Source: Mesostigma viride
Lineage: Eukaryota > Streptophyta > Mesostigmatophyceae > Mesostigmatales > Mesostigmataceae
Length of the DNA: 64,000 nucleotides
Assembly (NCBI GenBank): GCA_009746045.1
Contig: RPFO01000330.1
Location: 45,298 to 109,297, forward strand
Reading direction: 5' to 3'
In this document: positions 13,661-59,652 of the stretch, in pieces
Numbering within the stretch: the stretch's first letter is position 1
Layout of the letters: each line of letters starts with the position of its first letter
The notes under the pieces: generated by a model
The model's database searches: none
The model's input: only the letters and a program-made list of their open reading frames with translations
Told to the model about the DNA's origin: nothing
Made by a program: the position numbers and the translations under genes

Positions 13661-13679
13661 TGCTGTGAGTGACCGATCC

Positions 13680-14500
<821 letters not shown>

Positions 14501-14512
14501 AGTAACTTGCAC

Positions 14513-31380: not shown

Positions 31381-31425
31381 CAAGCTTCGTGCTTGTGCTC
31401 TCGTGAGCACCGTTTCTGCAACCAA

Positions 31426-34410: not shown

Positions 34411-36234
34411 CCACTAGCAGATTTAACGAGGAAATAAACCGAACTGAAAATTTCTCGGGAAAAGCGAACGGTAACGCAAAAATAGACTTACCAACGAAGA
34501 GAAATTCGCTCTTATCGCACGCGGACCCAGTGGTGGATGGAGTAACACAACGGTGTACTTTTTTGCATCTGCGGACAGCAGCCCGCAAAAGGGTCGGCAG
34601 GCTCGTACCCACCCCCGCGCGAATATTTTTTTCAGCTTGCAGCACGTCGGTAAAATAGAAAAAAAAATATGATGAGCGATCGCACATCTCGGAGCATGTG
34701 CAGCAAAATTTTCCAGCGTTAATAATGCTTAAATGCCTCCATCAAGGTCACCGCCATTAAGTCAGCCGACATAGCTTTTTGGCCACAATTTGCACCGAAA
34801 TTTGGTCCGTACCGTCCAGCTCAGTCGGGCAAGTCGGAAAGATTTTTCCGGCCGGCTCTCCGCGGGAAAAATTTGATGTGCTGGGCTACAGAGTGAGCAG
34901 ACGTAGTGCAAAATCAGTATGCACCACAGGGGCCACCACTTGGCCCCTTCAACTTGCTGGCACCACACCAGATGCACAGGGCAAGGAGAAAAGAAAACAA
35001 TTGCCTGAAAGCTGAAAACCAATGCTGCTTCAGGACCTGCTTGCAAGCTGCCTGCCTTGACAGCCTTGCACAGCCAGCTTTACCTCTATTCCTAGTATTC
35101 AGGAAGAGGCCTCAGCCTTGACCAAGCTTACCTACCAACTCTCAGTTAGCTCTGTGTGGATAAGACGAGAAGCCAGTGCCAACTGCACTTCTCAAAAAGG
35201 TGAGACCTGAGAGTGAGGTATGGCTAGGTTAGGCTTCACACTGTGTTCTTTGTTGCAAATGAAATAACGTTTTTATTACCAATACTCTACCTAACTTGGC
35301 AGCTCTGTTTCAGCAATGGCTGGGCTCGATGAAAGAAAGGAGGGCTGGCCACACTTGCCACGCACCACCATGACCAAGACAGAGTTCAAGGATCCACACA
35401 GAGCTACATCCAACGCCCTGGTGGAAACACACACTTATCCCAATGAATGCCTTACACTTACGCAATATCTTGCGTCAGCCTTACCTCGTAGCCACGCTCA
35501 GTATATCTGATCCTGACGACAACCGCTTTGTCGTCCATACTGCTTCAATTACACCAAAGCTACTCCGTGGCACTCGGCTTTGGTCAGCACCAAGACCTAA
35601 AAGTACACAAAATCCTAAGTCGTTGTCTGCAACGACTCCCTGTTCCGCATATGAAACATATCATCTCAGCACTTTCTCTTTAGACGAGAAAATCAACTAG
35701 ACAACCTGGGTAGGCCAGAAATCCCAGACGACAAAATGCCCTTGTCGCAGAGCACTCCAGTGTCGACTTGCCGACCCCTGAGCTTGCCAAACAACTATAT
35801 CACCAACCAAGCATGTACGACAACTAGCTGGCCCTGACGAGAAAAGCTGCCTTGTCGCATTCACAAAAGCGGCTTGCCAGCCTGCCGAATATCAATGCCA
35901 ATATTGCACGACATTATCTACCTGCAGCGGACAGTTCTCGAAATCAATAACGCGCCAGCTTGCGTGCACGTGCATGTTCAGCCTGCACGATCCGCATAAT
36001 TGCCAGGCTGGCAGCCTAGCTTGGTCCGTGTTGTAGTCCAGCAGCCAGTGCGTGCTGCTTGCCAGCGTTGGCACTGACCTCCTGGTGACGCATGTCAGTA
36101 CCGCTGTCAACTCCCCGTGCTGCGCGTCGCGCTACGGCGCATGCGTTGCTCCCGTAAGGCCCAAATGCCAAAGGCGTAACAACTCGCACACGCGCAATGC
36201 CTAGCTGCCTCGCCTCGTCCCCCGGGCCGGCCGC
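34411..36234. other. Region without firm gene
   Basis: Scattered short ORFs only. A possible intron end is seen at 35309-35314 (pyrimidine tract then CAG before ATGGCTGGGC), and a GT-type donor-like GGTGAG lies at 35199. They frame a short coding-like piece (MAGLDERKEGWPHLPRTT). Evidence is too thin for a gene call. Confidence 0.3.
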
Positions 36235-37375
36235 GTGGCGGCCCCGCGTAAAGCCAATACTCGTGCGAATCGGAACGGCGCGCGACACCCCGCCCCGTCC
36301 TCCAGCATGCCATCCTCAACTCCCTTCTCCAGCGCTCTGACGGCGAGATCTGGGCTCCATCCATATCTCCGCCCCCACCCTCCGTTCCATGGATGGATCC
36401 TCACGGAAGCCTTCCAGCAGCACGTGACCCCCCTTGCTGCCGACGTCGCAGCAATGGGTGGCACGCTGACTGCTGAACTTCCTCACATTTCCACCGCCGC
36501 CGCCTCCACCTCCACTGCCATTTCCGCCTCCACTGCCGACATCAAAGCCCAGCTCCTCGACCTCGACCAACGCCTTCAAGCCACCGCCAACGCCCTTGAG
36601 AGCTTGCATGACACCGCCGGCCTCACCGCCCAGGCGGTGAAGGACATCACCGCCCAGCCGGCGCCTGCTGGCCAGGCCGGCGATGCTCCCTCCACCTGGG
36701 CGGACTTGCTTAAGCAGCACACCACCTCCACCACCTCCACCATCACGGCACAACTCAAGCAACAAGCCCTCGACCTTCGCGAGGAAGCCGACATCGCCAG
36801 GCGCAGCCACAATGTCATCGTCAAGCACTTCGACCAGCCGGCAGGTGAGACCTCCACGAGCCTTCTTGAGGCATTTAAGCGCGCCATTTTTGCCCCCATG
36901 CTACTCACTGGTGAGCTGCACATGTCGGCTGTCCGCCTCCCCCGCGCGCGGGGGAAGGCTGGCCCGGCACCCGTGCTCCTCACCTTTAAGTACCTGGCGG
37001 ACAAGCTGGCGTTCCTTAAATGCCGCAAGAAGCTCTCGAAGACTCGCTTCACGCTGGACGACGACTTGACCAGGGCCCAGCAACAGCGGCGACGCGAGCT
37101 ACATATGGCCGACCTACCTAGCTCCGGCAGAGCGCAAGGGGGAAGCCGGTATACTAGCTAGAGGGGGGCGGTCATCCACGTTGACCACAAGCCCTGGCAG
37201 GCCCCCCCTGCCACCTCAGACCAGGGACTTTATATACCAGTAGTGTAGATTAATCAGGCTTAGCCTAGTAGCATGTGGCCCACGGGCATGTTCGCCCATA
37301 ATGGCCCCCATGGATCGATGATGCCTTCAGAATTTAGCCAAGCCCTGCCTATAATTAATTAATTAATTAATTAAA
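36235..37375 (+). mobile_element. L1-type ORF1-only retroposon (LINE derivative)
   Basis: An ORF1-like gene is followed directly by a short 3' UTR and a (TTAA)n tail at 37354-37374, with no ORF2 (endonuclease/RT) in between. The same organisation (ORF1 C-terminus, short UTR, hairpin, ATTAA tail) is repeated at 37.4-38.0 kb and 51.6-52.2 kb. The arrangement resembles half-LINE elements that keep only ORF1 and depend on a partner RT. Confidence 0.65.
36307..37161 (+). pseudogene. L1 ORF1p-like RNA-binding protein
   Basis: The frame is open from at least 36235, with the first ATG at 36307. An N-terminal disordered part is followed by a Ser/Thr/Ala-rich helical region with coiled-coil character (AQLLDLDQRLQATANALESL). 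Next come an RRM-like start (SHNVIVKHFD) and the C-terminal domain with FKYLADKLAFLKCRKKL and FTLDDDLTRAQQQRRREL, the wording of L1 ORF1 (Transposase_22) proteins. These bind element RNA as trimers. The frame stops at RYTS; the homologous copy at 52 kb has VYTGRGRP at this point, and the reading HVDHKPWQAPPA continues past the stop here, so the 3' end is mutated. Confidence 0.75.
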
Positions 37376-38110: not shown

Positions 38111-38315
38111 CCTATGTACCAGGCCCATGAGGGTATAAGAAGAGCTGGTTCTTGAGCTCGTCAGCAAGAGAGGTTGACGCCTATAATGGGACCCCCATGG
38201 ATGTTGCATTAAGAATTTAGCCACATGTGCTATCTATGCCATGCAGAGATCGAGATGCTCTCTGTCGAGAAGCCATGCCCTATAGCTTTTGTACAGCCAT
38301 GATGATCTTTGTCAC

Positions 38316-38797
38316 AGACGCGAGCTATGTCATCCGGGCGCCCACTATGCACAAGACCGGTGACGTGCGCAAGGAATTTGTTTTCTACGCATTTTCGACA
38401 AAGGCTAGTGACCGGGGGGGGGACACTGACTAGCACTTGCAGCATAAGAGCGGACGAAAAGTGTACGGTGCGCGCGCGCCGGGCCAGGTGCCCACAGCTG
38501 GGCGCGCAGCACTGACTTGAGCGGACGGCAGCACAAGTGCGCAGTGTGCCAGCGTCGAGAGGATCATACGCGAGTTAGTGGACAGCTGGATCGAGCTGGA
38601 GCTGGAGCTGGAGCTGGAGCTGGAGCTGGACTGCTGGATCGACTTCAACAGCGCCGAGGCTATTGACAGGCCAGGTGTCTTTGTGGTGTAGAATAGTGGG
38701 TCACTGAACGTTATGAGGACTGGACAGAAAAGGGAAAATGACCATTTGCGGTGCGGAGCCAGATCGCTGGAATGAATGCGAAATCGCTGGCAGCCCT
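38316..38797 (+). repeat. ~480-bp repeat shared with the fold-back element loop, inverted
   Basis: Near-identical, in reverse complement, to the loop of the fold-back element at 50751-51185. It carries a (GAGCTG)n hexanucleotide run of about seven units at 38588-38630 that is nearly absent from the other copy. It borders the broken end of retroelement B's integrase at about 38803. No coding function is recognised. Confidence 0.8.
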
Positions 38798-38802
38798 GTC
38801 GC

Positions 38803-41090
38803 GCTGAGTGCGCAGGAAAACATACTGCCCTGGCCTAAACCGCAGCTGGCGAGCCATGTATGTGCCCCCCCGGCGCTGAGCGTAGCGCAGGGAATCCCTG
38901 TGCTGAGCAATGAACAAGTTGTTCATCGCGATGGGCATGACCTTCTTAAAAGTCTCTGCCCTGGCCAGCACCTCAACCAAAAATTGCTGAGCGTTGTCGA
39001 AGGCCATGGGTTCGGGGTGCGCAACCTGTGCCTCCGTAGGCAAAAGAGGATTACGCCCGAACAGAAGGAAATACGGGGAGAAGGTAGCGAGAGACTCCTG
39101 GGGAGACATGCGATAACCCATGGCAATCCATGCCAACTCGCGATCCCACCTGGCCGACTCCGGCACCTGCAGGCTCCACTTGCGCAGCGCCTGCTTGACG
39201 GTCTGCACCAATCTCTCAGCCAAACCATTGGCCTGAGGATGCTCCCGAGAAGTGCGACGGTGATCAATAAGACATCCATCCAGCAACTCCTGGAACTCAC
39301 CCCTGAACTCACCACCCTGGTCCGTGACTACCTCCGCGGGAGCCCCAAACCTGGTGATGATGTCTGCAAAATGCTTCGCTGTGGTAGCGGCATGCTTGTC
39401 AGCAATGGGGATCAACTCAACCCATTTGCTAAAGCTCTCCACGCATACCATGACATAGAGGTTGCCGTCAGGGCTCTCCTGAAACGGCCCGCACAGATCG
39501 ACGTGCCAGCGATAAAACAAGCCCTTGATGGGAAGCGACATCAGCTCCTTGGCACCATGATCTGCGCTAAAGTTAGCCTTGGTTCGAGCACACGGGACAC
39601 AGCTGGCCACTACCTGGGCCACTGTGTGTCGCATGTTATTCCACCAATAGCTGGTCCGTACGAGGCTGAGCGTGCGATTGCCACCCAAGTGACCATACCG
39701 CTCGTGGTACGCCTGCACTATAGCAACGCGCTTGTCAGGCGGTGGGACGACCACCCTACGCTTGCCCAACAGCTTGTACAAAACCCCATCTTCCCAACCA
39801 TAGGTTGCAGCCCTGTGCTGCACCCTGTTCAACTCCGTCGCCTTCTGAGCAGGAGTCCAATCGACTGGAGTAGGAGTCAAGACAGCACCCTGCACTTGCT
39901 CCAAAACTCGACCATCTAGCCAGATATCAGCGGTGTAGCAATCAGCAAGAGAGCTACGCGCTAAGAGAGCCTGCACAGCGATCAGCTGCTGCAGAGAAGG
40001 ATCAATGTCAAAGGACAGCGACCTACCCTCTTCCATAGCGCACACAGCTTTGGATGGCGTGAATGGCGACGGCCGCACCGGGTCGTCGCTGATGCCGAAG
40101 TCCGCCACAGAGTACTCGACACTGCGCCACCACGCCTCCTCATCGTCGGCCGCATACCCAGCAGCGTTCACAAAGACCACAGAACCAGACGAGCCCTCGG
40201 CACCCATGGCCCGGGCTCCAGTGTGGTCAACAGTGGTAGGCATGGCGTATCGGGATAGCACATCGGCGTTGACATGGTCCTTGCCGGCCCGATGCACAAT
40301 GGTCATGTGGTACTCCTGGATAATCATGGCCCATCGGGCGAGCTTACCCGTCAGGTTGGTGTTGGTCATTAGCCACTGAAGCGGCTGGTGATCTGTCACC
40401 AGAGTAAACACGCGCCCAAATAAATACGGGCGAAAGTGCTTGATGGCCCACACCACAGCCAGTGCCTCCCCCTCATAGGAAGAATACCGGCTCTCCGCTG
40501 GGTTGTTGCTGCGACTAGCATAAGCAATAACGTGCTCGCGCCCATCACCATCCTTTTGCGCCAAGACCGCACCCAGTCCTACCTTGGACCAGTCGGTATA
40601 TAACACAAATGGCGAAGCATAGTCAGGGGCGCGCAGAATCGGTGCCGACGTGAGCTCCTGCTTGATTGTCTCGATGGCGCGTTGCTGTGCGGGACCCCAC
40701 GCCCACACGCACCCCTTCTTGAGTAACTCGGTCAAGGGCTTCACCTTGCTGCTGAAGTTCTCAATGTAACCTCGGTAATAGCCACCAGCCAAACCCAAAT
40801 ACGCCCGCACCCCTGAGACATCCGTGGGTACGGCGGCCTGCGCAATGGATTCGACCTTGGCGGCATCAGGCGTCCGGCCACCCGGCACAATCTGATGACC
40901 AAGGAATGAGAGGGTCCGCTGGGCGAACTTGCACTTCTCAGGGTGCAGCCGCATATTATGCTCCTCGAGAGCTAAGCGAACCTGCTCCAAGTGCGCCAGG
41001 TGCTCCTCAAATGTCGTGCTAAAGACGATTACATCATCAATGTAACAAGCGGCGAAAGGAAGACCTGCAAGCACTTTGTCCATAGCTCAT
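38803..41090 (-). pseudogene. Retroelement B RT C-terminus, RNase H and integrase (3'-truncated)
   Basis: Begins at the CACTA boundary with a stop codon (TGA, complement of 41087-41089) where element A has Arg, then AMDKVLAG and the RT box YIDD. RNase H has VLYTDWSKVGLGAVLA, YEGEALAVVWA and TDHQPLQWL. Integrase has the HHCC region (YHERYGHLGG, then CVPCARTKA), catalytic Asp in WHVDLCGPF, Asp in VVTDQGGEFRGEF and Glu in HPQANGLAERLVQ. The frame is open through the integrase, unlike element A. It ends in unrelated residues past 38803. Confidence 0.92.
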
Positions 41091-41092
41091 TG

Positions 41093-44000
41093 CACTAGGA
41101 ACTCGGCTTTGAGAATGGGTGAGAAAAGGTGAGAAAAAGGGTGAGATGGGTGAGAAAAAGGGTGAGAAATGGGTGAGAATGGGTGAGAAAAGTGAGAAAA
41201 TAGGGTGAGAAATGGGTGAGAATGGGTGAGAAAAGGGCAATCTCACCCAGGTGAGATTGCCCCAAAAAGGTGAAAAAAGGGGAAAAACGTGAGAAAAATC
41301 TCAAAAAACAGGACGTGAGATAAGTGAGAAAAACGGGAGGTGTGAAACGTGAGAAAAGTGAGAAAATCAGGACGTGAGAAAAGTGAGAAAAACAGGACGT
41401 GAGAAAAGTGAGAAAACACAGCGCTGAAAAACACACCCATAATGCAATATGCTGGCAGCAGACACATGCATGCAGTGCCAGTAACAACCGCTGTTCAAAA
41501 CAGCACGAACAATAATGATTTTTCATTAAATGTTTGAATAATTTTAATGTTTACAGCTGCAAGAACCCGTTGATTCAACTATTCAACACTGTTATGGCGT
41601 TATGTACATCTTCGGCATTCAAATATGCCTGTTCAACACAGTCTGTTATGGCGTTATGACATCTTCGGCATTCAATGCCTGTTCAACACAGTCTGTTATG
41701 GCGTTATGACATCTTCCGCATTCAATGCCTATCATCAAATACTAAATGGTAGCTAGCTAACAAAGCGTGCCGGTCGACAGGGCGTCACATGCTGACTTGA
41801 AAGTGGAACCGCTTGCATTTTACTCTCGTGGTCCCTGCAAGAAATAAACAAACCGACACAATATACGCAAGAGGAAAAGAAATCAGATCCTTGACATAGA
41901 TGTAAGCGTTCTACAAGGAAGAGCTCACCAGCACCTAACGGTCCATGCAGCAAATGTGTGGAACCCAACACTCACTCTTATGGCAAAGCAGCCCCATGTG
42001 GCAAGGCAGCACCATACACATGAATCACACCATGCGCCAGATGTCACACGAGCAAGGCACAACGTTGTCGTCGGATCAGAAAGCAACAAACGTGAAAACG
42101 CTAGCGGCCCAAATCTGAGATTCCGCGGAACACAGAAAATAAGAAAGCTCAGAAGCTACCAGCAAGGGATCGAACATATGACCTTTGGCATGATTTCGCG
42201 GCTGTGTGAGTCTCCTGATCCGAAGGCATCTCACTTAATTAACGTTTCGAAACAGCCAAACTGCGGAAAATCTCTTACCGGAGAGAGTTGCCAATATCAA
42301 GGAGACAACCAGCGCAGGCGGCCAGAAATCGGGAGAATCCGGACCATGGTAGCTCGAGCCTGCCGTTATCTTGTCCGCGTTTTCGAGTCGTGCAGGATTA
42401 TGAATATGAATGGAGATGGAAATGTGTAGCCTTGTGCATTGAAATTACGGCTGGCTGACGTGAAGAGCGACTACATGACCTACACGGTGGGGCCGGAAAC
42501 GGCTTGCTTGATTGTGTTTCATCGTGGGCAACGAGTCCAACAACTACTTTCTCTGGGCGGCAAACTGCGGCAAATTGAACGCAAACCTCATCATGAAATC
42601 TTGACCGTCGAAATGTAACCATCCGACGACTTATGCAGTATGCCGCGTAATTTTCTGTTGCGGGAGAGCCGTTGGGCCGGTTCCCGACGCGGGCGACCAG
42701 TGGTTTGCGTTAAGTTAACTTAGCTGAAGTTCTCCAACAGAAGTGACCCAAGCCGCATGATGGCACTCATCGACGGCCTCAGTCTATTGACGCGTCGGCC
42801 CGATTTTGGCGGCACCCAATTTGACCCCAACGGCACCTACCGACAAAGGGCATAGGTAAGTTTCACGCGCACCACGACCTTCGAGCTCTGCTATGGCGGT
42901 GGTGCCGTGGGGCCCGCATCAGACTGCGGGCCCTTATCTGCTTTGGCGGTGCTGCCGTTGGGCCCGCATCAGAATTCAGGCCCTTTATGCAGGCGGGCCC
43001 TTAATGCATGTTACTTTTTTATTCTTCTGCATACAAATATGAAGCAATGAGGTCGTGTCCTCCGGATTTTTGCATTTGCACCGTGGGCAGTTCTTGGACG
43101 TTTGGAAACATGCATGATGGCATGTGGCTAATGCAATGACTGAATCAAGCTGGACCGTTTCAGTGGTTTTTCATTTGCGGGTATTTCCTCGTAAATGGTG
43201 GGAAAGCGATCGCAGCAATGGTTCTCACCACTAGACACTCCCGGCCAGTGAAGCTCGAAAAACACGCCCTGATCAAGCAAGCTGTTTCCGGCCCCACTGT
43301 ATAGGTCATCTTACAGTCGCTCTTTGCGTAAGCCAGCCATAATTTCAATGAACAAGGCTGCACATTTGCATACTCTTTTCTTGGTTATCGGTGTGCCTTT
43401 GTTTGGATGCAGGGGGGATCGCTGTGCTGACACAACGCGTTCAACGTGCTGGGAATCAACAATCCTGACGTCCCAAGGTTTACTGGAGGGGCGGGGACCT
43501 GATGATCAACCACGAGATGTGGACGCCCCCTGCGGGCTAGAATAGCCCTAGCTTGTAATCATTGGCAGTCTCTGCCGCCATGGCAGCCATGCCTAGAATG
43601 TTTGCCTAGCTGAGCCATTATACCTAGTCACGTGCACCGCTAACACACGGTACACAACCAGCCATAGCCTTAGCTTAGTCCTTGTACAACCATGCTACGT
43701 CATGGCAATGCTCAGATCACTTGCCCATGCACCCGTTATGATATGCTCACATGGGTCTTATTGCACCCACAGATTGCCGGATCGTTTATCGGGTCCAATA
43801 GCAGCTGCGACATGCCTTTGGCATGAAGGAGAAAGGGGGTCTGTGCCCTTCCTGTTGTGCACACACAGGGATTAAAAGCACTTCGGTGCTCCGTGATCCA
43901 ACGGGAGCACGAGTTCAATTAATCATGTAATTAATTAATTAGTGGTGCTGAGTTTATTTTCATATTAATGACTTAATGAAATAAAGCTCATGATTTTTTT

Positions 44001-44347
44001 CGTGTTACACTCTTGGTGAGAAATTTCTCACCACGTTGACTTGTGATTTTTCTCGTGTTAGTGATTTTTCTCGTGTTGGTGAGAAACTTCTCAATTTTTT
44101 CACTTTTTCTCACTTTTTCTCACTTTTTCTCACCCATTCTCACCTTTTTTCTCACTTTAGGGTTTTTTCTCACCCAAATCTCACCCAAACCCCCTTTTTC
44201 TCACCAAAATCTCACCCTGGTGAGATTTTGTTGCCTAGCGTTTGCGGAAAAAAATTGAGATTTTTCTCACTTTTCTCACCTTTTTTCTCAAAGGGGTGAG
44301 AAAATTGAGGGTTTTTGAGAATTTTCTCAGAAATTGAGTTCCTAGTG
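41093..44347. mobile_element. 3.26-kb CACTA element inside retroelement B RT
   Basis: Ends CACTAGGAACTC (41093) and GAGTTCCTAGTG (44336-44347), flanked by TG (41091-41092; 44348-44349). Removing it with one TG restores the RT frame. It is near-identical to the 8.1-kb copy at 22361-30435 but lacks that copy's CACAA and piggyBac-like insertions. Remaining differences are small indels (for example around 41620 and 42855), so the two copies are young relative to each other. It is non-autonomous; the ORF at 41956-42429 is shared between copies but has no recognised domain. Confidence 0.95.
43432..43955 (+). mobile_element. Captured L1-type 3' end, second copy
   Basis: Copy of 29520-30040 carried inside the CACTA element; terminal hairpin at 43886-43910 followed by the ATTAATTAATT tail. 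Confidence 0.75.
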
Positions 44348-47300
44348 TGGAAAACAGCACTAGCGTTGCGGTGCCCAAAGGGCATGCGCACCCACTCATA
44401 CAAATTGCCGCCCCCCCAGAATGCAAGCTTCCGCTGATCCTCCGGCGCAACTGCGATCTGATGAAAGCCGCTACGCAGGTCCAGCGAGGACACAAACTTC
44501 ACATGAGGAGATATCTTATCCAGGACATCATCCACACGTGGCATGGGGTAACGGTCCACGGGTGTGTGTGCATTCAGCAACCGCAGATCGGTGGCCATGC
44601 GCATACCCGTCCATGCCCCGGTGATAACGTCCTTCTTGGGCGCAACGACAACGGCAGCAGCATAGCTGGAGGAAGATTGCCTGATGATACCGGCATCCTC
44701 TAACTCCTTGCATTGCTCGGCTACAAAGTCCAACTCGGCCTGACTCAGGCGATGCTGGCGTCGGAACAAAGGAGTGTCAGTGTCCAATGGAACACGCATG
44801 GTCCCACCATTGAAACACCCCAGTTCATCACTTGTGAAAGCGAAGGCCCCCCTTGCAGTGCCTAGCCACTTTAGCATGGCTGAGCGCTGCGCATCAGAAA
44901 GGTGTTCGCCAATAGCCCAGGGGTGCGTATCCGCGGGATCACCCACAGCTACCGCATGTGCCTCAAGATGCGGCGCCCTAGCCGCATCGTCGTGGAACAA
45001 GGAAAAGGCTGCCACACCTGGTGTGACACCCACCGCCGGAGCCTCGCGTGCCGCACGGTGTATTACCCGATGCAGCGTGGGCTCGCCGGCCAGCACGGTG
45101 CTGGTCAGCAGGGCGGTCATGAGAATGATAGTCCACACCTGTCGCAGACGCCACCCCCATGCTGATGAAGTCCCCGTCGCTGCAGGGCGCTTCAGTTTGG
45201 CTGCACGCGCCTCAACCTGCTGAGGCGGATTGGCTGGGGACGCCCCCCCAGACTGGCGCACGGCAACCGATGCAAGCAGCACATACCCGACCTGCAACAC
45301 CGACATAGCCTGGCCTATCAAAGACCAGCGCTCACTCTCGAGCACGCCCGGCAGCGCCGAGGCCCCGACATGAAAACCCATGCTGGCCTCACGAAATTCT
45401 GCGGGTGGCTGCACCAACAGACCGGTGGTAGTGTCCCAAACGAGACCCTTACCCCGATCACGGTATGCTGTCGACCCTTGGTAACTGACCAGGGTCGGCA
45501 GTGCACACATGGGGCTCCCGACCCGGTTGACGCGTGCATACGGTGGGCGATCCTCGCTATCCACCTTCTGCGTGACTAGGTGGGAAGGCAATGCTACCTC
45601 CGCAGACACACTCGGATGCTGCCTTGCTACGGCCCCCAAGACCGCCTGCACACCGGTCGCACACGCCACGTTGGTCCAATAGGCACGCAAACGATGCGTG
45701 AGCCCACCCAGCCCTGCGTTGTCACACACGATGGGCTCCCCCAGGAGTGCCACGATTGTAGCCCAGTCCTCCCGCACCGCCTGATGTGGGCTGTCACCCG
45801 CCACAACGTTCTCAAACAGATACGCAGGCGGATGGGGCTGACGCGACTGCAACAGTCCCACCACACGCAACAGTTCCCAGAACAGCGCGCTACGCGGATC
45901 GGCTAGCCCCCGCCCTTGCCCTGCCTGGCTCAGGCCCTGGCACTCCCAACCCGCGATTACCAAGTCGATGGCATGATGCCTGCGCAACAACTGCTGCACC
46001 TGCACCTCACCGATGGCTCGGATATCTTGAGGACATTCCCCAAACGGGTCACGCCATGCTGATGGCGGAAACTGCGCGGGATACTCTCGCGACAACACGC
46101 CACAGTGACTGAAGTACACCTGACGCGCCTTGTGCGATGGCTCTACCGCGATGAGTTTACGGCACACGCCGCCTGCGGCCAAAAAGCCTGCAATGCCCCC
46201 TCCGATCCCCGCAAACAGTTCCAACACTACCGCACCCTTGGCAAAATCAGGGGCCTGCGGTAAGATTGCAGCAGAAAAATTACCTTGGGCCTCCGAGACA
46301 CCCGGTTGCACCAAAGTGAGGCCATGGCTGGCCATCTGAGGAATGGTGACGACGGCTTCAGTCACCCGCTTGCGCATAGCCAGCTGCCGCGTGGACGTCA
46401 CAGCATCCAGCGACCACTGCGTGCGCATCTTGGCAATGCTCGCCGTTGGCTGAGGCAGCACCGTCCGATGCTTGTCCCACGCCGATGAGCCCGCCGCCCG
46501 TACCTCCACCATGCTGACCTCCACCACGCCCGCAGCCGCTGAAGGGTTGAGGCGTGCAGCCCCGGCTGAAGAACTGAAGCATGAGACCGGCACACTGGCC
46601 CGCTTCAGGCCAGCCCCATCCCAATCAGGGATGTAAGATGCCTCCTCCGCCCTATAGTCCACCTGAACCATGGCGCGAGCAAGGACATCCACCCCGAGTA
46701 GTGCGGAATATCCACACTTGTTGACCACCAGCGCATACGCGGACACGGTGGTCATGCTAGAGGCGCGCAACGGATTGAAAATCACGTTGACTTTAACCGC
46801 CGTCATAGCGTACGGCTTACTAGCCGGACCCTGCCAACCTGACACAGACACGGGGCTTTCCACTAAGCCACCGTTCTCGTAGGTCAGGTTCAGCATGGTG
46901 GCCAAGTCTGTGCTGATGACTAGCGGCTGAGCACCGCTATCAAGCTTGACTGCGCCAACCAACGGACATGTCACCATGTCGCTCCATACATCTCCACAGG
47001 CTCCAACTGCTTGGAACGCTATGGACGGCTCACCATTGGGGTATGGAACCACCGTGGGAACCTGGGGAACTGCACTAGTGCGCTGCTGGCTACTTGTGCT
47101 GACCACTCCCGCTTGCACCACGGGCACTGCGGCTTCTACCGGCTGACGCCCGTAGGTGACGGACTCAGAATTGCGCAAGGTGCGCACATCATGCCCATCT
47201 GCGAACAACTGGATCTCGGACACAACCGACCCCAGCCACTCAACCCCCTTCTGCCCGAAGGTGTCGACCACCTGCCGTGCTGAAAACATGGGTACGTCCA

Positions 47301-48501
47301 CAATGAACGGCATTGGGTACACAGGCGCCAATCGCCTACGCTGCTCCAGCCCAGCCGGGTTTGCATGCTCAAAAGCAGATTGCACCCCAGCCAGCGGCAT
47401 AGAAAAGGACGCGGGCAACTGCCCGGCAGGCAACATGGGTGCCTGCTGAAAAGAAAGCGGGCTGCGTGCCTGCTTGCCTTTGGTAGCCTCCGCAGCGTTG
47501 ATCTCGACGTCACCCGGCATGGGCGCCCAGAATGGGTCCTCCCGGTACACCATCGCGAATTGGTTGGGGGGCGCCGTCGCCTCCTCACCATGCTTGATGG
47601 CAGCCACCTGGGCCTCCATCGAGTCGGTCTTGCCCGCCATCTCGGCGAAGTGGACCGTCTTGATGCCGGCGGCTGGACACTTGTTCATCAGGTGCCACTT
47701 CGTGTCTGCCCCATGCGACTTCGTGCAGCGGCTTGGACACTCGCGACTAAGGTGCCCATCCTTGTCGCAAAGGTAACATTTACCGCGTGACGGGGTGGGT
47801 GCGCCCAGCGCGCCTTGCACGCCCTGCGCCTCCTGAGTCCCATCCGATGACGGCGGACGACCGCCTCCGCCTCGACCACCACCGCGACCCCGACCACCGT
47901 AGCCACTGCCGCCGCCACCACGACTGACACCGCCGCTGCCACCCTGACCGGCGTTGCCACCACCCTGAGTGCCGACATATTCACCGCGCCCCGCACCAGG
48001 CAGCCGCTGGCCACCCTTGACCGCGATGGCCTTCTCCATCTCAGCCATCTTCTTGCGCATCTCAGCCAGCTCAGACGAGATACCCTTCTCGCCTTCCGCA
48101 CGCTTCCTGAGCAGCCGCTTGAATGCTGCACAGAGAGTCACCAAAGTCCACTCCCCACCGGGCGGCTCCGGAAGATCGATGGCCAGCAGGGGCACTGCAC
48201 TCCGCCATAACCGGCAAGCCTTGGTCTGCGTATAATCAGGCACTTTGCCCGCAAACGCGAGAAGCCGGTCAAGGGAGAAAGCCGGATCCTCACCCTCGGC
48301 GACGGTGAACGCTCCATTCCATTCCGCGATGGCCTTGACGTGCTCAACTGGGTACTCCAGCCGCAGTTGCTGCCACAGCTGCTCTGCCGGGTCGACATCG
48401 AAGATGATCGAGTCGAGATCCGGTGTGCCCATGTCCGTGAGCGCAAACCATATGTCCGTGCGATGACATCGGTCCACGAGCGCTCGGTAATGCTGGACCA
48501 A
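44348..48501 (-). CDS. Retroelement B polyprotein: gag, protease, DNA methyltransferase, RT N-terminus
   Basis: About 1384 codons are open without a stop. Numbering from 48501: capsid-like region with SIIFDVDPAEQLWQQLRLEY (31-50), coiled coil (about 144-160), Gly/Arg-rich segment (164-216), CCHC knuckle CYLCDKDGHLSREC (242-255), protease with Asp-Ser-Gly-Ala at 521-524 and LLGVDVLARA (601-610). The C5 methyltransferase follows (about 755-1080). RT motifs then run MRMATDLRLLN (1300-1310), SSLDLRSGFHQI (1338-1349) and WVRMPFGHRNASAVF (1370-1384) to the CACTA boundary. A single fused gag-pro-MTase-pol frame differs from most elements, which use a frameshift. True start lies upstream; a frameshift near 48530 separates the first gag part. 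Confidence 0.92.
45262..46239 (-). other. C5-cytosine DNA methyltransferase domain, intact
   Basis: About 325 residues with the conserved motif order of C5 methyltransferases: motif I ELFAGIGGGIAGFLAAGG (SAM binding), motif IV GWECQGLSQAGQGRGLADPR with catalytic Cys854 of the frame, motif VI LFENVVAG (Glu897 contacts the target cytosine), motif VIII-like THRLRAYWTNVA, motif IX-like PPAEFREASMGF and motif X-like LIGQAMSVLQVGYVLL. The enzyme family transfers a methyl group from SAM to C5 of cytosine in DNA. The usual Pro before the catalytic Cys is Glu. The region between VIII and IX, the expected target-recognition part, is short (~90 residues). There are no added chromatin domains, so it looks phage/bacterial-like rather than like host DNMT1/CMT enzymes. 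Confidence 0.93.
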
Positions 48502-49535
48502 AACCTGGACCTTCTTCTTGGTCAGGTCATGGAAAAAAGGTGAATAAAATCCATCACCATCTCATGGCGAAGAGGATACCCCGAGGCATAACGATAAGTG
48601 TTACAATGAGCTCGGAAGAGCTCATAGGCTTCCTCTAAAGTCGCACCCGTGCCTGCTGAGGTGAACTTCTCGCGAAGCTCCACCTTGGGCAGCGATGGCA
48701 CACGAGTGGATTCGCCATGCACGCCGTACGGCATGCGGTGGGGTCGCTGGACGTCGTCGCCCTCACCCCATGGTATGCTGGCTACCTCCCGATCGACTTG
48801 GCCCCAGCCGAAGTCTGACCGAGTGCCGCCAAGCCTGGGCCGCCCTGCGGTGCCACCCAACGGCGTTGCTGCCGCCGTCATGGGTGGCCGACCTGTGCTA
48901 AACAAGCCACCTGATGCTCCCCCCCTGGGGGCTGCACCATACCCGCCGCGCCACGATAACGTGCCTTGGTTGGGTGCCCGTAGGTTCCCCCCCAGCGTAT
49001 AAGATGCGTCGGCAGTCGACCGGGTGCCTACCCGACCGACGTTCGGCTGCAGCTCGTCATCCTGCGCCATTTCCCCGTCGCCCCGCCGTTGACCGCTTGG
49101 TCCGACGCGTGGCTGACTGGGCTCAACGTTGCGTAGTGGACCTGTCCCACTGCGCTCTTCGTCGAAGTGTCCGCGTTGGTCGCGCAGCGCCTCATGTCGC
49201 CGCGCTTCCTCGGCAGCGGCCTCCTCGTCGGCAGCCTGCCTGGCCTCGGCGTCGCGTTGGGCCGCAGCTTGGCAGGCGCGTGCAGCTTCCGTGGTTGCCT
49301 CCGCCTGCCGCCGTTGCTCAGCGCGCTCCGTAGCACGCCTCGCTTCAGCCGTAGATTCCGCGCGCTCCAAAGCAAGTCGCACAGTTTCTTCAACAAGCGT
49401 CGCCTGTTGCGATAACTGCGTCGCTTGCTGAGCTCGGAGTGCCGCCAGCTCTGCCGCTTGCTCTTGCAGCAGGCGCAGCACTTGGGTCAGTAAGAGCACC
49501 ACCGTCCCCTGCCGAAGAAAGGGAAGGCGCTCCAT
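48502..49535 (-). CDS. Retroelement B gag N-terminal part
   Basis: From ATG 49535 (MERLPFLRQG). Residues ~10-120 form a long coiled-coil-like helix rich in Ala/Glu/Arg (LLQEQAAELAALRAQQATQL and so on). A disordered Gly/Arg/Pro region follows, then a capsid-like segment (KVELREKFTSAGTGATLEEAYELFRAHC). The frame stops at FIHLFSMT; the expected continuation HDLTKKKVQVLVQHYR lies in another frame, so one base has been lost or gained at the T-run near 48528-48534. This could be a real mutation, an assembly error or a programmed slippage site. Confidence 0.75.
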
Positions 49536-50337
49536 TACCTAACAAAGCGGTGTCCGCACTAGTGCCGAGACGACCGCTGGGCGGGTCAGTTGCTTGACCG
49601 CCCGTAGCTGCCGGCGCTGACCCACCACTGCCTGATATGCTGTGGGGTCAGTTCCTGACATGTTGATGGTGGTATCGACCCTGGAGAGCTCCTGCCCGTC
49701 GGTGTCGACGCCCGTGTTGGCACAGCCTGCGTGGCTTGCCAAAAACGCTGTGACCGACCTAGTGTGATATGACATAAACTGCCACAACCACTACCAAGTA
49801 GCAACGGTCTAATCTGAAAGTGGTTGATCAGGCCACTATGTGTGCTAGTCTTCCCCAGAAAACTGCACACCGTCTCTCTTTGCTGAAATGAAAATGTTCC
49901 TTTGCAGATGGAGTTAGTCTCTTCGAGTAATGAAAAGAGGGCTCTCAGCCGAGGACAAGTAACTGTCCCTCGTGCTTGATGACCACCTTCTTGATCCCCT
50001 TGCGTACCGTCGCGTGCCGCGTTTGAATATCCTTGCTGGGGCGTTAGCTAGACGCTCCAACTACTCTAATTGCGACAATATGATGGTGCAAGAGGGTGCT
50101 TTTGCCTCCCCTGCTATAGAACAATGCTTTCACAACACACACTTTGCACAGTCTGATGATGAAGCCGCACATGCGGAATTTATTGAGAAAGTTAATACAA
50201 TTACAACACGTTGATAGTCTCAATATCGATGCACTCCATGCTCACGAGCCCGCAGTTAGGCAGCGCTCCATGACATGCTACCGGCCTTGCTCCCAAGGAA
50301 AGGGAGAAACACGAAGGCCACTAACGAGAGACTCGAA
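49536..50337. other. Flank of retroelement B with a weak ORF
   Basis: No LTR is recognised next to gag. An 80-codon frame at 49972-50214 on the plus strand has protein-like wording (DPLAYRRVPRLNILAGALARR, SDDEAAHAEFIEKVNTITTR) but lacks an ATG at its start and could be a gene remnant. The rest shows nothing definite. Confidence 0.3.
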
Positions 50338-51601
50338 GAGACTACACGCTGCGTGAGAGTCCTCTTCGACTATGAACCAAACCATTCGTCATGCCACACG
50401 CATGACACACGCCACACTTGTCAGTCCAGCCAGCAATGCCAAAACTATCTTGCTGCCTGAACCATGCAAATAGAAACCGCATTCCAGTTGCCGTCCTGGC
50501 TTTCTACCACACATGCCAACAAAAGCAGGAAGGCATCCCGACAAATCTAAATTGCTACCCTGTTGCCGATCTCATCTCCTAGAGGCTCCGGCATTTCTGT
50601 CCCTGGGAATGTCCGACATTGAGTCACGTCCAGCAAGGTCGAAGCATAATATCCTTCAGACAATCTGCACGCTCACACCTTGCGTGTGAGTGGCCCAGCA
50701 AACATTGCGTCTAATCGTTCCTTTCTAGAAGAAATCCCTTTGTAGGGCTGCCAGCGATTTCGCATTCATTCCAGCGATCTGGCTGCGCACCGCAAATTGT
50801 CCTTTTCCATTTTCTGTCCAGTCCTCATAACGTTGACCCGCTATTCTACACCACAAAGACACCTGGCCTGTCAATAGCCTCGGCGCTGTTGAAGTCCAGC
50901 AGTCCAGCTTCAGCTCCAGCCAGCTGTCCACTAACACGCGTATGATCCTCTCGACGCTGCGCACTTGTGCTGCCGTCCGCTCAAGTCAGTGCTGCGCGCC
51001 CAGCTCAGTGTGCCTGGCCCGGCGCGCGTGCACGTACACTTTCGTCCGCTCTTATGCTGCAAGTGCTAGTGTCCCCCCCCGGTCACTAGCCTTTGTCGAA
51101 AATGCGTAGAAAACAAATTCCTTGCGCACGTCACCGGTCTTGTGCATAGTGGGCGCCGCCCGGATGACATAGCTCGCGTCCGTGACAGCCCTACAAAGGG
51201 ATTTCTTCCAGAAAGGAAATATTAGAAGCTATATTTGCTGGGCCACTCACACGCAAGGTGTGAGCGTGCAGATTGTCTGAAGGATATTATGCTTCGACCT
51301 TGGTGGCCGTGACTCAATGCCGGACATTCCCAGGGACAGAAATGCTGGAGCCTCTACTAGGAGATGAGATCGGCAACAGGGTAGCAATTTAGATTTGTCG
51401 GGATGCCTTCCTACTTTTGTTGGCATGTGTGGTAGAAAGCCAGGACGGCAACTGGAATGCGGTTTCTATTTGCATGGTTCAGGCAGCAAGATAGTTTTGG
51501 CATTCCTGGCTGGACTGACAAGTGTGGCGTGTGTCATGCGTGTGGCATGACGAATGGTTTGGTTCATAGTCGAAGAGGAGTCTCACGCAGCGTGTAGTCT
51601 C
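50338..51601. mobile_element. Fold-back element with ~415-bp inverted arms
   Basis: The left arm 50338-50750 and right arm 51186-51601 are reverse complements with few differences (outer end GAGACTACACGCTGCGTGAG). They enclose a 435-bp loop (50751-51185). The loop is a near-copy, inverted, of 38316-38797. No clear target duplication is seen at the outer ends; a weak direct repeat (CATGACATGCT) lies near 50270 and 51607. No transposase. Long inverted repeats of this kind are typical of fold-back or some Mutator-like elements. Confidence 0.88.
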
Positions 51602-52198: not shown

Positions 52199-52769
52199 TG
52201 TTACGTCGCGTAACAATTCGTTGTAGTCACGGACGTAAATTAGGTCCTTGGCCTCGGTTGTTCCTAGGTTACGTGCAGTTCTAGTTTGGACATGATTGTT
52301 CCCGTAACAGTACTGTGGTATAGTGGGTGCCTTTGGGCGCCGCGCCGCGTACTATATTAGTGGTCCTTATCCTTTTGTAGAATGTAGTGGACCGGCGTGC
52401 ATCTGTGCACCTGCTTGTGTTTCTGTGTTTCTGCAGGCGAGGGCCAGGTCGGCCCGAGCCTGTTGGACCGTTGGTGACCATTTATGCACGTTCCACTCCT
52501 TGTGTGGTCACTCGGCGTGTGTTAAATGAATTAACACATATTAGCTTGGGTCACGGCAGTTTAGTTGTGTTTCCTTCCTCTTTTCCTGGAGTAAACGGGT
52601 TTGATTAAATGGCCTATGGCATATTACAGTAGTACATATGTAAATGCATTGAGATCTGGTTCGTCTCGGTCGTCTTTCGCTAGGGGTGTATATAGAAGCA
52701 GCCTCACTAGTTTAGGTAGTATCAGGACAGGTAGAGGTAGAGGTGGTGGCCGAGGCTTGCGGCGTAACA
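52199..52769 (+). repeat. Retroelement C 5' LTR, 571 bp
   Basis: TGTTACG...CGTAACA, preceded by GCACC. A 104-codon frame starting at 52601 crosses the LTR end into the leader; its coding status is doubtful. The sequence TGGACTCGGAGG directly after the LTR (from 52771) is in the position of a tRNA primer-binding site. Confidence 0.9.
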
Positions 52770-53289
52770 ATGGACTCGGAGGTAGTTTAGATAGAGAGCG
52801 AGACGACGATCCTTTGCAACATACGTCATTGAATCAACCCTTCCGCGGCTGGGAAAAAGAAGACGACACCTACTTGACAGGTAATGGGCGGGTCGCCGTC
52901 AAGCTAGGAGGATAGTGCTGCCTGATTCAGGACACGCCCTGCCTAGACGTTAGACCTGCTCGAAGCGGAAAATCCTTTCGTATATAGCTCCTGTTCCTCG
53001 TCTTGTTTCCTTAGAAAGATGGTTTACTGCCGTAGACAGTTGCTGGTTTTGGTTCGACGATAGAGAGACGGCTAGCGTCTCGTAGATTACCCTTTTTCTG
53101 CATCTTGCCTGCTTTGTATTTAGACGACCCTTCGCCGGACGCAGAATTCTTGAAACCGGATACTTACGACCACCTGGCGCTGGAAACATCGTCCCTACGT
53201 GCGTCGTCAATCTGGTTCGGTTTCAGACACCCGAGATAAGTCGCCTTCTCCTCGTTCTCCTCATTTGACTGCTCAAGACCTACCAGGTG
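52770..53289 (+). other. Retroelement C 5' leader (duplicated at 62946-63465)
   Basis: About 520 bp between the LTR and the first ORF; almost identical to the segment after the second LTR. It contains the presumed primer-binding site at its 5' end. Confidence 0.8.
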
Positions 53290-53296
53290 CGTTACC

Positions 53297-53689
53297 ATGA
53301 GCCAACGGCGATCTTTTACTGCTCCTTCCCATTCTTCTAGCGATAATAGTCTAGCTAAATATTACGTAGTGATTACGCCTCAATGGTCCTCCATTTTCCT
53401 TTCTTGGTCCGACGCTAGGAAGATCGTTCAGAATCGTGTATATAACGTAATTAGGTATAAGAAATTTATGTCCTTTGAAGAAGCTCAGCAGTTCCTTATA
53501 GATCATAGCCAAACAGATTTAGGCCTGCATGTACGCCCTATTCCTCATGGTCGCCCTCCAGTAGAAGCTCTAGTCTTTGCTACCCCTCCTTCTTCTCCCC
53601 CTAAACGGGCTGCATCTGCATCTGCTTCAGATACTCCTCTCACTTTGGAGTTTGGTTCCCTATCCATTACTGTTGTTAAAAAGGATTGA
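53297..53689 (+). CDS. Viroplasmin / RNase H1 N-domain-like leader ORF of retroelement C
   Basis: 130 residues from ATG 53297 in good context (ACCATGAG). Residues ~21-69 (KYYVVITPQWSSIFLSW, then the SFEEAQQFL ending) follow the pattern of the small fold found at the N-terminus of eukaryotic RNase H1 and in caulimovirus inclusion-body proteins, which binds RNA-DNA hybrids or dsRNA: aromatic start, SW-x-D-A/E, basic middle, F-x-S/T-x-E-E-A-x-x-F. The rest is Pro/Ser/Ala-rich. It precedes gag and is the most intact ORF of the element. An RNA-binding or translation-related accessory role is possible, but this is inference. Confidence 0.65.
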   Translation: MSQRRSFTAPSHSSSDNSLAKYYVVITPQWSSIFLSWSDARKIVQNRVYNVIRYKKFMSFEEAQQFLIDHSQTDLGLHVRPIPHGRPPVEALVFATPPSSPPKRAASASASDTPLTLEFGSLSITVVKKD

Positions 53690-53780
53690 TTTTAATTTTG
53701 TTCCTGCTGCAGACCTTCAAGGTTTTTCCTTTTTCCTTTGTTGCTTTCTTCTAGATTCCTATTCCTTTACGTAATTAAAG

Positions 53781-55526
53781 ATGGATCCAGTGGGTGGAGA
53801 TATGTCGCCTATACCTACCAATAATAATAATAATACTACTACTAATAACATAACAATAACAATACTCGTGGTAACCGACGGGACTCCTTGGAAACGGTAC
53901 ACCATCTCACCCTCAAGGTATTCTGCGTACCTCACCTCCTTCTCCTGTTGCTGGTGGTCGCCGTCGTCCCTCAATTACCCCACCTACCTATGAACAACGT
54001 ATTTCCCAAGTCAGATTTAGTGAGGAACCTTCTTTCGTTGTGAACCAGGCCCCTGCCCCTTCTGCAACCTTGGCTCACCCCTCCAGCAGGTCCTCACACA
54101 CTAACAATGCTCCTAGGCCTCCTTCCCACCCTGTGCCTTCAATGCCTGCTATTAACACGGGTCGTACCTCGGCCCCTGTCGGCCCTTCTGGGCGCCCTAG
54201 TGCAGTTCCCTTTTACCCACCTGCTTCCTGGTCCTACCCTGAGACGGCCTATGAGGCTGCCCAGGTTCCTACCCGTGTGGCTGATTTAGAAGTTAATAAT
54301 GATTTCAGTACCATGCCCCTAGATGATAGGAATTATGATCATTTTGCCTATTCCTCTCTTCGTGAGCAATATACTGTCCCTTCTCCTATGGGCACCATCC
54401 GGAAACGGTGGCTCCCTCTAGACCCCTACCCAAGACTTTTCCTATCCCTTCCTTCTATCCCGCTTATGTAGCAGTGGAAGATAGTGGCCCTATGGGAAAA
54501 ACTGATTCTTCTAATCCCCCTAAGCCTCCTGCTCTTCCCCTCTTTGCCAACCTTCCTAAGCTGGATGTCAAGTCTACCCCTCAACAGTTTTTCACCTTCA
54601 TTATGTTGCTCACCCAGAACACAGAGTCCTGGCAGAACCACAATAGGTGGCGCCTCTCTGATGCTGTACTAGTTCCTCATTATCTTACTACCTGCATTAC
54701 TCCTGAACTTGCTAACCTCATCCAGTGTGAGTCTCTTGCCTCTCATGCCTACCCAAACTCTGTAGCAGAATTGTTCAAGCGTTTAGAGAACCATTTAGTC
54801 CCTCCCGATGCAGATTGGCAGGATAGATTATCCTTTGGCACCTTGCAGCAGGGTACCAAGTCCTTCAAAGAATATATGAAAGAGTTTGATGCTCAGATGG
54901 TACGAATTAGGGATTTGTCGGGTGCAGAAGTACGTGCTCGCTTCCTTCAGGGCCTCAGTAGACCCTTATTGCGTGAAGTCAAGCGCCAGTTCTCTGCCTA
55001 CCGTTTTACTGACCTGCCCCTCAAGCATGTGCGCCAGCATCTTTTACGAGTAGCAGATTTCTTCTCCACACCTTCTCTTCCTACCCGTTCCCGTATTAAT
55101 AATATTAGCCTTACCCCTGAGGAGGAGAACTCCTATGTAGAAGAATTAGATATCTGTGTGACTGACCTTTCAGCTCTGGATGTCTCTCATATCACCTGCT
55201 ATCATTGTAAGGAAGTAGGTCATCTTAAACGTGAGTGCCCCAAGTTCCTTTCGGGTGCTCCCCCTCATCCCGACGCTCGCCCTCCTCGTACCCCTCAGCG
55301 TGCTCCTATTCGTCCCACTTCAGGACGCATTCCTTCAGCTACCCCTAGTAGGCTGAATGCTGTGCAGACAGGATCCCCAGGGTTCCCCTATGATAATCAG
55401 GCTCCCGCACCCTCTTCAATCCCTCGTGACCCTCCAGCAGTGGCTTTTCCGCCAGGGTCTTCTTCGGGGTTCGTTCCTATGGATTTGGGGGGGAGGGGGA
55501 ACAGTAGGCCTGTCAGCCGGGGGTAA
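53781..55526 (+). pseudogene. Retroelement C gag
   Basis: Probable start at ATG 53781 (MDPVGGDMSPI); frames shift at least twice before 54410. The intact part (54408-55526) has a gypsy capsid signature (LPKLDVKSTPQQFFTFIML, DRLSFGTLQQGTKSFKEYMKEFDAQ, ARFLQGLSRPLLREV) and a zinc knuckle CYHCKEVGHLKREC. It ends in a Pro-rich tail overlapping the protease frame. Gag forms the particle that packages element RNA. Confidence 0.85.
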
Positions 55527-56036
55527 CCTGGACAGGTCCTTAGATAGTACCCCAGATAATAATTTTTGCTTGCCTGTTTTTATAACCTCTGTAGGAGCTG
55601 AATCATCCCTACCACTACGTGTGCGTCCTCTTATGTTCTTGAATGGTGGCTTAACCGTCCCTCATACTGTTGTAGACCCCTTCCTGCATGCTGATGAACT
55701 CTTGAATGTCTCTGTGTTAGTGGATAGCGGTGCGGCTAGCTCCTTTGTGAGCGAGGCCCTAGTTAGGCGTTTAGGACTAGTCCCTACCCCTCACACAAAA
55801 ACTGTCACTGTCCATTATGCTGACGGTCGCACCAGTCATTCCCCGGGTACGGTGTCCCTTCCCCTGGTCATACAAGGACGTACGGTCAACCTGACGGCCA
55901 CTATAGGCCCTATCACTACAGCTGATGTATTACTAGGATTAGATTGGCACAGGATAATAAAATCACTATTAATTATGATACTATGGTCATTTGGTTTCCA
56001 GATAGCTCTACTGGGTACCAGAACGTCATTATAGAT
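55527..56036 (+). pseudogene. Retroelement C aspartic protease
   Basis: The active-site motif VLVDSGAASSFVSEALVRRLG is followed ~70 residues later by TADVLLGLDWH, the paired signatures of retroviral-type aspartic proteases. The frame overlaps the gag end in a different phase and stops at 56034, ~15 bp before the RT frame opens. Confidence 0.85.
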
Positions 56037-56050
56037 TAGAAAATTTATCC

Positions 56051-57238: not shown

Positions 57239-57998
57239 AGAAGGATATCCCCTTTGTTTGGAGTAGTGAATGTCAGTCGGCTTTTCAGTGTCTAAAATCC
57301 CTACTCCTCTCCCCTCCTGTACTCATCCTACCGGATACTACTAAACCCTTTGTTGTAGCTACAGATGCTAGCAAGGTAGCTATAGGGGGCGTCCTTCTCC
57401 AGGATCAGGGTCAGGGCTTACAGCCAATCGAGTATATCTCTAGGACAATGCTTCCTGCGGAGCGTAACTATCCCGTCACCAGCAAGAACTATTAGCTGTG
57501 GTGTATTGTTGCCACGCGTGGCAGCACTTTCTTAAAGGTGCTCAATTTGATGTTTGTCTGAATGAACCCTGTGAGATTGATCCTTATAGATTAGTTATCC
57601 AGACAGATCACCGCCCTCTTACCCATCTTCTCTCACAACCCAACCTTACCCCTCGTCAAGCGCGCTGGATGGAGTTTTTAGCACAGTTCTCCCCTTTTAA
57701 ACTTCAGTATGTTAAGGGTGTAGATAACATAGTACCAGATGCACTCTCTCGTCGTGCAGATTACTCCTTTTTCGAGGACCTTGATGTTCTCAATACTACT
57801 CTAGTTCCTACTACTATGGGTGTAACCCCGTATGGTGAACTACCTGATGATGAATCCTATGCCTACCTCTTTCATACAGCTGTTCGCATGCCTGATCTCC
57901 TTTCTCACGTAGGACTCTCTCTCCCGTGTGAGGCCCTTCCTGTGGTCTCGGTGGGGGGGAGGGGAAAAATAAAATTTCTATACCGCTTAGCCATATAG
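57239..57998 (+). pseudogene. Retroelement C RNase H and connection
   Basis: Two frames: FVVATDASKVAIGGVLLQD and EYISRTMLPAERNY (57239-57495), then after an indel AWQHFLKGAQFDV, RLVIQTDHRPLTHLL, VKGVDNIVPDALSRR (57498-57998). This is the gypsy RNase H ending in the DALSRR motif before the integrase. Confidence 0.88.
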
Positions 57999-58023
57999 CG
58001 ACTAGGTCAGGAAAGTCTTATGA

Positions 58024-59000: not shown

Positions 59001-59019
59001 TTTAAGGGACAAGGATGAT

Positions 59020-59634: not shown

Positions 59635-59652
59635 AGACCTTCTCCTCTCTTA

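Follow-up and report, generated by a model that had tools for sequence, protein, structure and literature searches.

A DNMT3-like cytosine methyltransferase within the pol frame of Ty3/gypsy-type retrotransposons with split repeats in the alga Mesostigma viride

Cytosine methyltransferases are usually a weapon of the host against retrotransposons. Some members of the DNMT3 group are embedded in retrotransposons, in streptophytes and dinoflagellates, according to PMC12344493, whose main text does not mention Mesostigma. The closest described systems are KnitGypsy-Dnmt3 of Klebsormidium nitens and two elements of Symbiodinium, SymbioDIRS-Dnmt3 and SymbioLINE-Dnmt (de Mendoza et al. 2018, available parts of PMC5890265), and this is the 2018 report to which an earlier note on the present DNA had referred. 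Here, we describe a stretch of 64,000 nucleotides of the Mesostigma viride contig RPFO01000330.1 (hereafter the window, to which all coordinates refer), which contains damaged copies of two subfamilies, A and B, of a methyltransferase-carrying element. We consider it likely that copy A is a damaged member of a large, recently active Ty3/gypsy-type family with a DNMT3-like methyltransferase in pol (protease, methyltransferase, reverse transcriptase (RT), RNase H, integrase, PHD finger) and split repeats of the form A-coding-B-A-B, which would insert from circles and methylate its own cDNA. Observed were the gene content, the predicted fold and the clade of the enzyme, the number of copies, and the repeats, ends and 4-bp target duplications of the element; the remainder of this reading is drawn from the structure.

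The methyltransferase domain of copy A (45247-46257, minus strand, like the other parts of its pol and gag) was recognized by PF00145 (4.7e-11), by its motifs and by an AlphaFold2 model with a predicted local distance difference test score of 91.9 and a complete, DNMT3-like fold. Motif IV reads ECQ, the catalytic Cys codon being at 45942-45940. The domain lies within open reading frame (ORF) 2 (44215-48501, 1429 aa, open), which encodes a gag-like stretch, a CCHC zinc knuckle (47737-47778; motif and PF00098 at 2e-4, residues 240-257), an aspartic protease region with the motif LDSGA (46687-46947; weak PF13650 and PF13975 matches, clear in the relatives P0008 and P0030), the methyltransferase and the N-terminal half of RT (44347-44640; RVT_1 7.4e-7, residues 1288-1385). 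ORF1 (48522-49535) is gag-like by position only; it gave no Pfam match in the profile scan, and no similarity to the frame at 30430-31425 was detected. The Mesostigma gene model Mv19666 (P0007) is a 100% match to ORF2 over 61% of the searched region, and a second one, Mv22128, resembles copy B by eye. These results, together with the integrase of intact copies, bear out what the earlier note had read from the letters, namely a Ty3/gypsy-type pol with an intact methyltransferase between protease and RT and an ECQ variant in motif IV. Its interpretation stood for gene content, whereas its suggestion that the enzyme could regulate or disguise new copies is still conjecture; it had not noticed that copy A is broken in RT and integrase, that the family is large and near-identical elsewhere, or that the repeats have the form A-coding-B-A-B.

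To place the enzyme, we searched PDB with a profile of 12 related domains, which matched DNMT3 at 2e-26, DRM at 4e-15, HaeIII at 1.5e-9 and HhaI at 2.5e-8. A single relative, P0012, found DNMT3A first (2.2e-8; HaeIII 1.3e-5), whereas a bacterial single-sequence control found HhaI first (1e-36; DNMT3C 1.8e-6). The window domain as a single query matched DRM, HhaI and HaeIII weakly, and DNMT3 was not among its matches; a structure search with the predicted model ranked DNMT3 first. After removal of the gappy rows P0039 and L004, a methyltransferase tree with 33 rows united all 18 domains grouped as retroelement domains in one clade (18/18, support 100/99), the domain of copy A included. This clade groups with DNMT3, with a single row on a long branch and with four phage enzymes that resemble DNMT3; the HhaI type stands apart (100/99). 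By profile search, predicted structure and tree, the methyltransferase sides with DNMT3 and not with the HhaI type. Eleven of the 18 clade domains, liverwort and metagenome records included, have retroelement domains or motifs in their own record, and seven short records (P0003, P0004, P0027, P0028, P0029, P0031, P0032) have no retroelement domain annotated. The motif IV Cys, the motif VI Glu and RxR are kept in 18/18. ECQ is a recurrent variant, present in 6 of the 18 rows and requiring at least three changes on the tree.

The presence of DNMT3-like phage enzymes in the same larger clade raises the question of whether the domain derives from a phage-type methylase and not from a eukaryotic DNMT3 gene. 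Approximately unbiased tests rejected neither grouping (retroelements with DNMT3, p 0.246; with phage, p 0.10). However, profile and structure searches put DNMT3 first, though PDB may hold few such phage enzymes, and a scan of viral contigs with one pattern gave three stretches, none of which was confirmed as a relative. Phage proteins are 27-33% identical to the P0012 domain over 47-63% of its length (best 15 of 165 records). We regard a phage origin as a serious but rather unlikely alternative.

The clade reaches beyond Mesostigma to Marchantia polymorpha (MARPO_0008s0049, P0016), Calypogeia fissa (P0030) and metagenome proteins. The methyltransferase follows the protease in 7 of the 10 tree rows scored for position (the two window copies, P0008, P0012, P0014, P0016 and P0030), the protease evidence being a profile match in P0030, weak for P0012 and P0014, and for P0016 a motif seen by eye. 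Of these rows, only the window families and P0008 have RT in their own record. P0009, P0010 and P0011 have the methyltransferase between RNase H and integrase, and the tree needs one change of position for the 10 rows. P0015 stands outside this count, its order of RNase H, methyltransferase and integrase coming from Pfam coordinates and analyst-set domain limits. The metagenome polyprotein P0009 also has a G-patch domain directly after the methyltransferase (residues 1184-1223). A record of 159 aa labelled Prorocentrum lima (P0037) is 98% identical to the C-terminal methyltransferase region of copy A over a quarter of the query and is probably cross-contamination, possibly from a Mesostigma transcript. 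Among the matches of all three protein searches (∼8000 candidates each, most matches without an organism name), there was no Klebsormidium-named record.

We then searched the Mesostigma assembly (439.9 Mb, 2243 contigs) for further copies; the counts are lower bounds for both subfamilies. For the 1,011-bp domain of subfamily A, all 40 places scored out of 315 candidates, the window copy included, were full length with ∼100% identity, and eight fetched copies (among them that of the window, L018) differed by 0-1 nucleotides, with no stop in the methyltransferase in 8/8. For subfamily B (40 scored of 314 candidates), 18 places were identical over 999 bp, and 36, including window copy B, covered at least 990 bp at 94-100%. 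The family thus seems large, very abundant and recently active. The copy C133 has a frame of 2074 aa with CCHC, protease motif, methyltransferase, RT, RNase H, H2C2 and rve integrase and a PHD finger, and in the intact copy L024 the domains were found by RVT_1 (1.7e-27), RT_RNaseH (2.3e-38), Integrase_H2C2 (9.4e-17), rve (1.5e-10) and, for the protease, the LDSGA motif. The intact copies examined end in integrase and PHD finger. Subfamily B has the same pol order, with a frame of 1642 aa beginning before the methyltransferase, in 3/3 copies (L050-L052); the other fetched stretches, L053-L055, are broken (3/3).

Beginning near the CCHC, C133 and copy A are 99.2-99.3% identical, whereas the gag and 5' leader of C133 have no match in the window, so that two 5' types share one pol. 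The two types (window 47773-49535; L024:1-971) have no detectable DNA similarity and stand on nearly identical subfamily A pol; the 13 nt following repeat A (CTCGAAGAGACTA) are common to both by eye. Comparison of these sequences suggests template switching within subfamily A. The same genome also holds near-identical HhaI-type methyltransferase genes (L008-L014; 364-aa frames, 161.1 bits) in at least 10 places. The 8-kb stretch around one of them (L060) gave no match to any part of the methyltransferase element, and these genes may be part of a viral-type or other mobile element.

Between the window copies of the two subfamilies, the methyltransferase (238 codons) has a nonsynonymous divergence (dN) of 0.267 and a synonymous divergence (dS) of 1.84, a dN/dS of ∼0.15. 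This estimate is rough, since dS approaches saturation and the two copies compared are those of the window, one being frameshifted. Third positions differ by 0.567 versus 0.218 at second positions. With a dN of 0.203 and 0.262 for the RT and RNase H pieces, for which dS was not computable, the methyltransferase appears about as constrained as RT. This bears on whether the domain is an inert passenger, captured and carried along with its catalysis abolished by ECQ in place of PCQ. In its favor are the rarity of ECQ among C5 methyltransferases and the fact that copy A is dead as an element; yet the catalytic residues are retained throughout the clade, the domain is open in every fetched subfamily A copy, the low dN/dS speaks for constraint, ECQ recurs on the tree and the predicted fold is complete. 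We find an inert passenger decidedly improbable.

The repeat layout of subfamily A is repeat A (1138 bp) at the left end, the coding part, repeat B (143 bp), GC, A and B, these repeats not being the subfamilies of the same letters. Of 13 copies inspected at left and right, eight have A on the left and five coding-B-A-B on the right (C1912+, C667+, C113+, C1107- and C111-, with the repeats interrupted or diverged in C1912+ and C1107-). Two lack the last B, C133 with coding-B-A and C1912- with coding-B and part of A; C224+ and C224- stop at the first B, and the four others have no B in the fetched stretch. In subfamily B, L051 has B (136 bp), GC, A (∼1127 bp) and B (136 bp), L050 is the same up to the fetched edge and L052 has only B. 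The whole layout is thus based on subfamily A and its 3' part also on subfamily B. The repeats of the two subfamilies barely align, yet in both of them B is immediately preceded by the polypurine tract AGCGAGGGGGGG, its end reads ACGCGACA, and the B|A junction forms the palindrome GACA-GC-TGTC. A 241-bp query over tract, B and junction was 100% identical in 40/40 scored places (968 candidates).

The outer ends of the element are TGTC...GACA, and exact 4-bp target duplications flank 7/7 copies in which both outer ends were read; copies giving one end or none are outside this count. They are AACC and CGCG for the form A-coding-B and CAAG, GGGT, TCTG, CCCA and GGTA for A-coding-B-A-B, the GGTA copy (C1491) having a variant first motif and being read by eye. 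In all seven, the left end is A and the right end B (or A-B), so the ends are not identical long terminal repeats (LTRs). The 2074-aa frame contains the rve integrase and gave no match to the tyrosine recombinase profile PF00589 at E<=0.1. Such a layout could also be an artefact of tandem insertion or assembly around an ordinary LTR element. C111, with a further coding end in tandem on the left, and C133 have extra or tandem parts that a simple model does not predict, and some copies lie on short contigs. On the other hand, the same 3' layout, tract and palindrome recur in the two subfamilies, the exact duplications lie at A...B ends in every copy that could be read, and a DIRS-like layout has been reported for Klebsormidium (available parts of PMC5890265). 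We consider an artefact most improbable.

These features suggest how the element might replicate. Transcription would start and end in A, and reverse transcription, in which the tract before B would prime the plus strand, would yield a cDNA with B-A repeats; this tract and the identical A at both sides of the transcript would lead to such a cDNA, as in C133, whose B-A repeats of 1282 bp are 100% identical. The cDNA would become circles with one or two repeats, which the DDE integrase would open at the B|A palindrome and insert as A-coding-B or A-coding-B-A-B. If circles holding one or two such repeats are opened at B|A, exactly the two integrated forms would result, the A|B junction being the joint between repeats. 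The methyltransferase would be made and packaged with RT and integrase in the particle, and the PHD finger, as a reader of histone tails, may help to direct integration. More tentatively, we propose that the substrate of integration is circular cDNA opened at this internal palindrome (B-GC-A) instead of linear LTR ends, that the element's own repeat is split at every insertion, that the DNMT3 enzyme acts on the circle, with its CG-rich junction, before integration, and that one such lineage extends over Mesostigma, liverworts and probably Klebsormidium; we hold this extended proposal to be possible, but short of probable.

As for function, in our view the enzyme most likely methylates the new cDNA in the particle, probably at CG, before insertion, so that the cDNA would enter the genome marked like host DNA. 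CG is the main site of the widespread methylation in Mesostigma DNA (PMC6947507), and the SymbioDIRS-Dnmt3 domain gave de novo CG methylation in yeast (PMC5890265). Several points weigh against this account of the element. Besides the single-query search, the extra parts of C133 and C111 and the roughness of the selection estimate, no primer-binding site was identified, no search for tRNA matches having been made, and in the yeast experiments of 2018 the enzyme of Klebsormidium yielded no methylation, a result called inconclusive there (PMC5890265). Across parts of copy A the CpG observed/expected ratio is 0.78-1.03, and for copy B it is 0.74-0.80, compared with 0.78 in the window as a whole; TpG/CpA is raised in most element parts (1.17-1.54 versus 1.26). 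CpG ratios near the window value give no clear sign of methylation-driven loss and, with the raised TpG/CpA, the signal is mixed.

The enzyme might instead act on RNA or host chromatin, for example to dampen its own family. For LINE-DNMTs (long interspersed nuclear elements, LINEs), methylation of RNA is considered in the 2018 paper, as is a benefit to the host (PMC5890265), and the wide CG methylation of Mesostigma DNA would fit; however, placement in pol beside RT points to cDNA, and abundant identical copies do not look self-limited. We judge such a target unlikely and prefer methylation of the cDNA.

In the window, copy A is interrupted in RT by a CACTA-type insertion (41093-44347, ends CACTAGGAACTC...GAGTTCCTAGTG) that adjoins an in-frame stop; the intact copy L024 is continuous across this site. 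The remainder of RT, RNase H and integrase follows at 38803-41086 (minus strand), where the integrase frame is cut off at 38803, with loss of the PHD finger. A repeat A forms the 5' end (A1, 49928-51188, minus strand; 98.0% and 89.2% matches to A of C133, with ∼100 bp extra near 50001-50101). Alignment to A also identified an inverted duplicate of A positions 424-839 adjoining A1 (51183-51601, plus strand) and an inverted fragment, A 2-433, abutting the truncated integrase frame (38310-38797, plus strand). The repeats at 38310-38797 and 50338-51601 were first read as a miniature inverted-repeat transposable element and a foldback element, a reading discarded when genome copies showed them to be pieces of the element's own A. 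Similarly, the inverted pair 36980-37212/51955-52186, first taken for element ends, resembles LINE-type ORF1 pieces (36205-37161, by eye). No direct repeats longer than 71 bp were found flanking copy A, and none flanking copy B.

Copy B extends within 7420-31425, with a frameshifted methyltransferase, nested insertions and a retained PHD finger. On the minus strand it comprises gag-CCHC-protease (20187-22151; tblastn with copy A ORF2, CCHC under its cut-off), the methyltransferase (18715-20166, in pieces 19627-20166 and 18715-19623, of the same family as L050-L052), RT-RNase H-integrase (8133-10898) and, in another frame, the integrase C-terminus with the PHD finger (7420-8505; PHD 4.9e-9). 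About 8 kb separate its methyltransferase from RT, and intact relatives lack these ∼8 kb. The frame 30430-31425 was counted as its upstream part by eye, from likeness to L050-L052. A second, broken CACTA-type member lies in pieces at 22704-30435; the pieces are 97-99.9% identical, with (T)GAGAA-rich subterminal repeats in both members. Elsewhere in the window there are a plus-strand gypsy element (52199-63464) whose direct repeats of 1.09 kb are 99.4% identical, whose scanned frames contain no methyltransferase and whose coding part has a CpG ratio of 0.55, lower than in the methyltransferase elements; an intronless 678-aa frame like a plant CDKD-type kinase by eye (1272-3308); and long minisatellite-like arrays with repetitive peptides in several frames (13659-14680 and 32458-33775).

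The Mesostigma element can be compared with known systems. A standard Ty3/gypsy LTR retrotransposon has TG...CA ends and a 4-6 bp duplication; the present element agrees in both, but its ends are A and B (or A-B). DIRS elements, which use a tyrosine recombinase, are not known to make a target-site duplication, in contrast to the 4-bp duplications and rve integrase found here. Its enzyme shares the fold of DNMT3A and DNMT3B, its best profile match, and is related to enzymes that set new methyl marks in animals and plants; however, it is only ∼18-24% identical to them in structural alignments, the clade has ECQ or PCQ instead of PCN, it sits within a retroelement polyprotein, and no PWWP or ADD domain was found in the element frame by profile scan. 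The liverwort records P0016 and P0030 also have a protease followed by a methyltransferase of the same clade, but are named only hypothetical or unnamed proteins, and RT is absent from the retrieved records. No report of such an element in Mesostigma or Marchantia was found in the literature searched, of which parts were available, and absence from print is thereby not established. The Symbiodinium elements are likewise retrotransposons with captured C5 methyltransferases, and SymbioDIRS also has the A-coding-B-A-B structure, but they carry a tyrosine recombinase or a LINE endonuclease instead of a DDE integrase with 4-bp duplications (this and the following from the available parts of PMC5890265). 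KnitGypsy-Dnmt3 comes closest, with a streptophyte algal host, Gypsy-type domains, a Dnmt3-related methyltransferase in pol and a DIRS-like A-coding-B-A-B structure; the Mesostigma element shows the three features that we take to define it (Gypsy domains, Dnmt3-related methyltransferase, repeat layout), a likeness by description and not by sequence. The host differs, and the ends, 4-bp duplications and junction palindrome are undescribed there. This kind of element is therefore already known, and what is added is the host, the scale, a clade-wide view, the PHD finger and the integration evidence. Here, a retrotransposon family that keeps a methyltransferase has many near-identical copies in an alga from the base of Streptophyta, and related frames occur in liverworts; it can now be tested whether the 2018 observation reflects an ancient common lineage and not a Klebsormidium oddity. 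Moreover, the insertion mode seems unusual, and the ends and duplications suggest how a DDE integrase could coexist with DIRS-like split repeats, a combination stated and left unexplained for KnitGypsy-Dnmt3.
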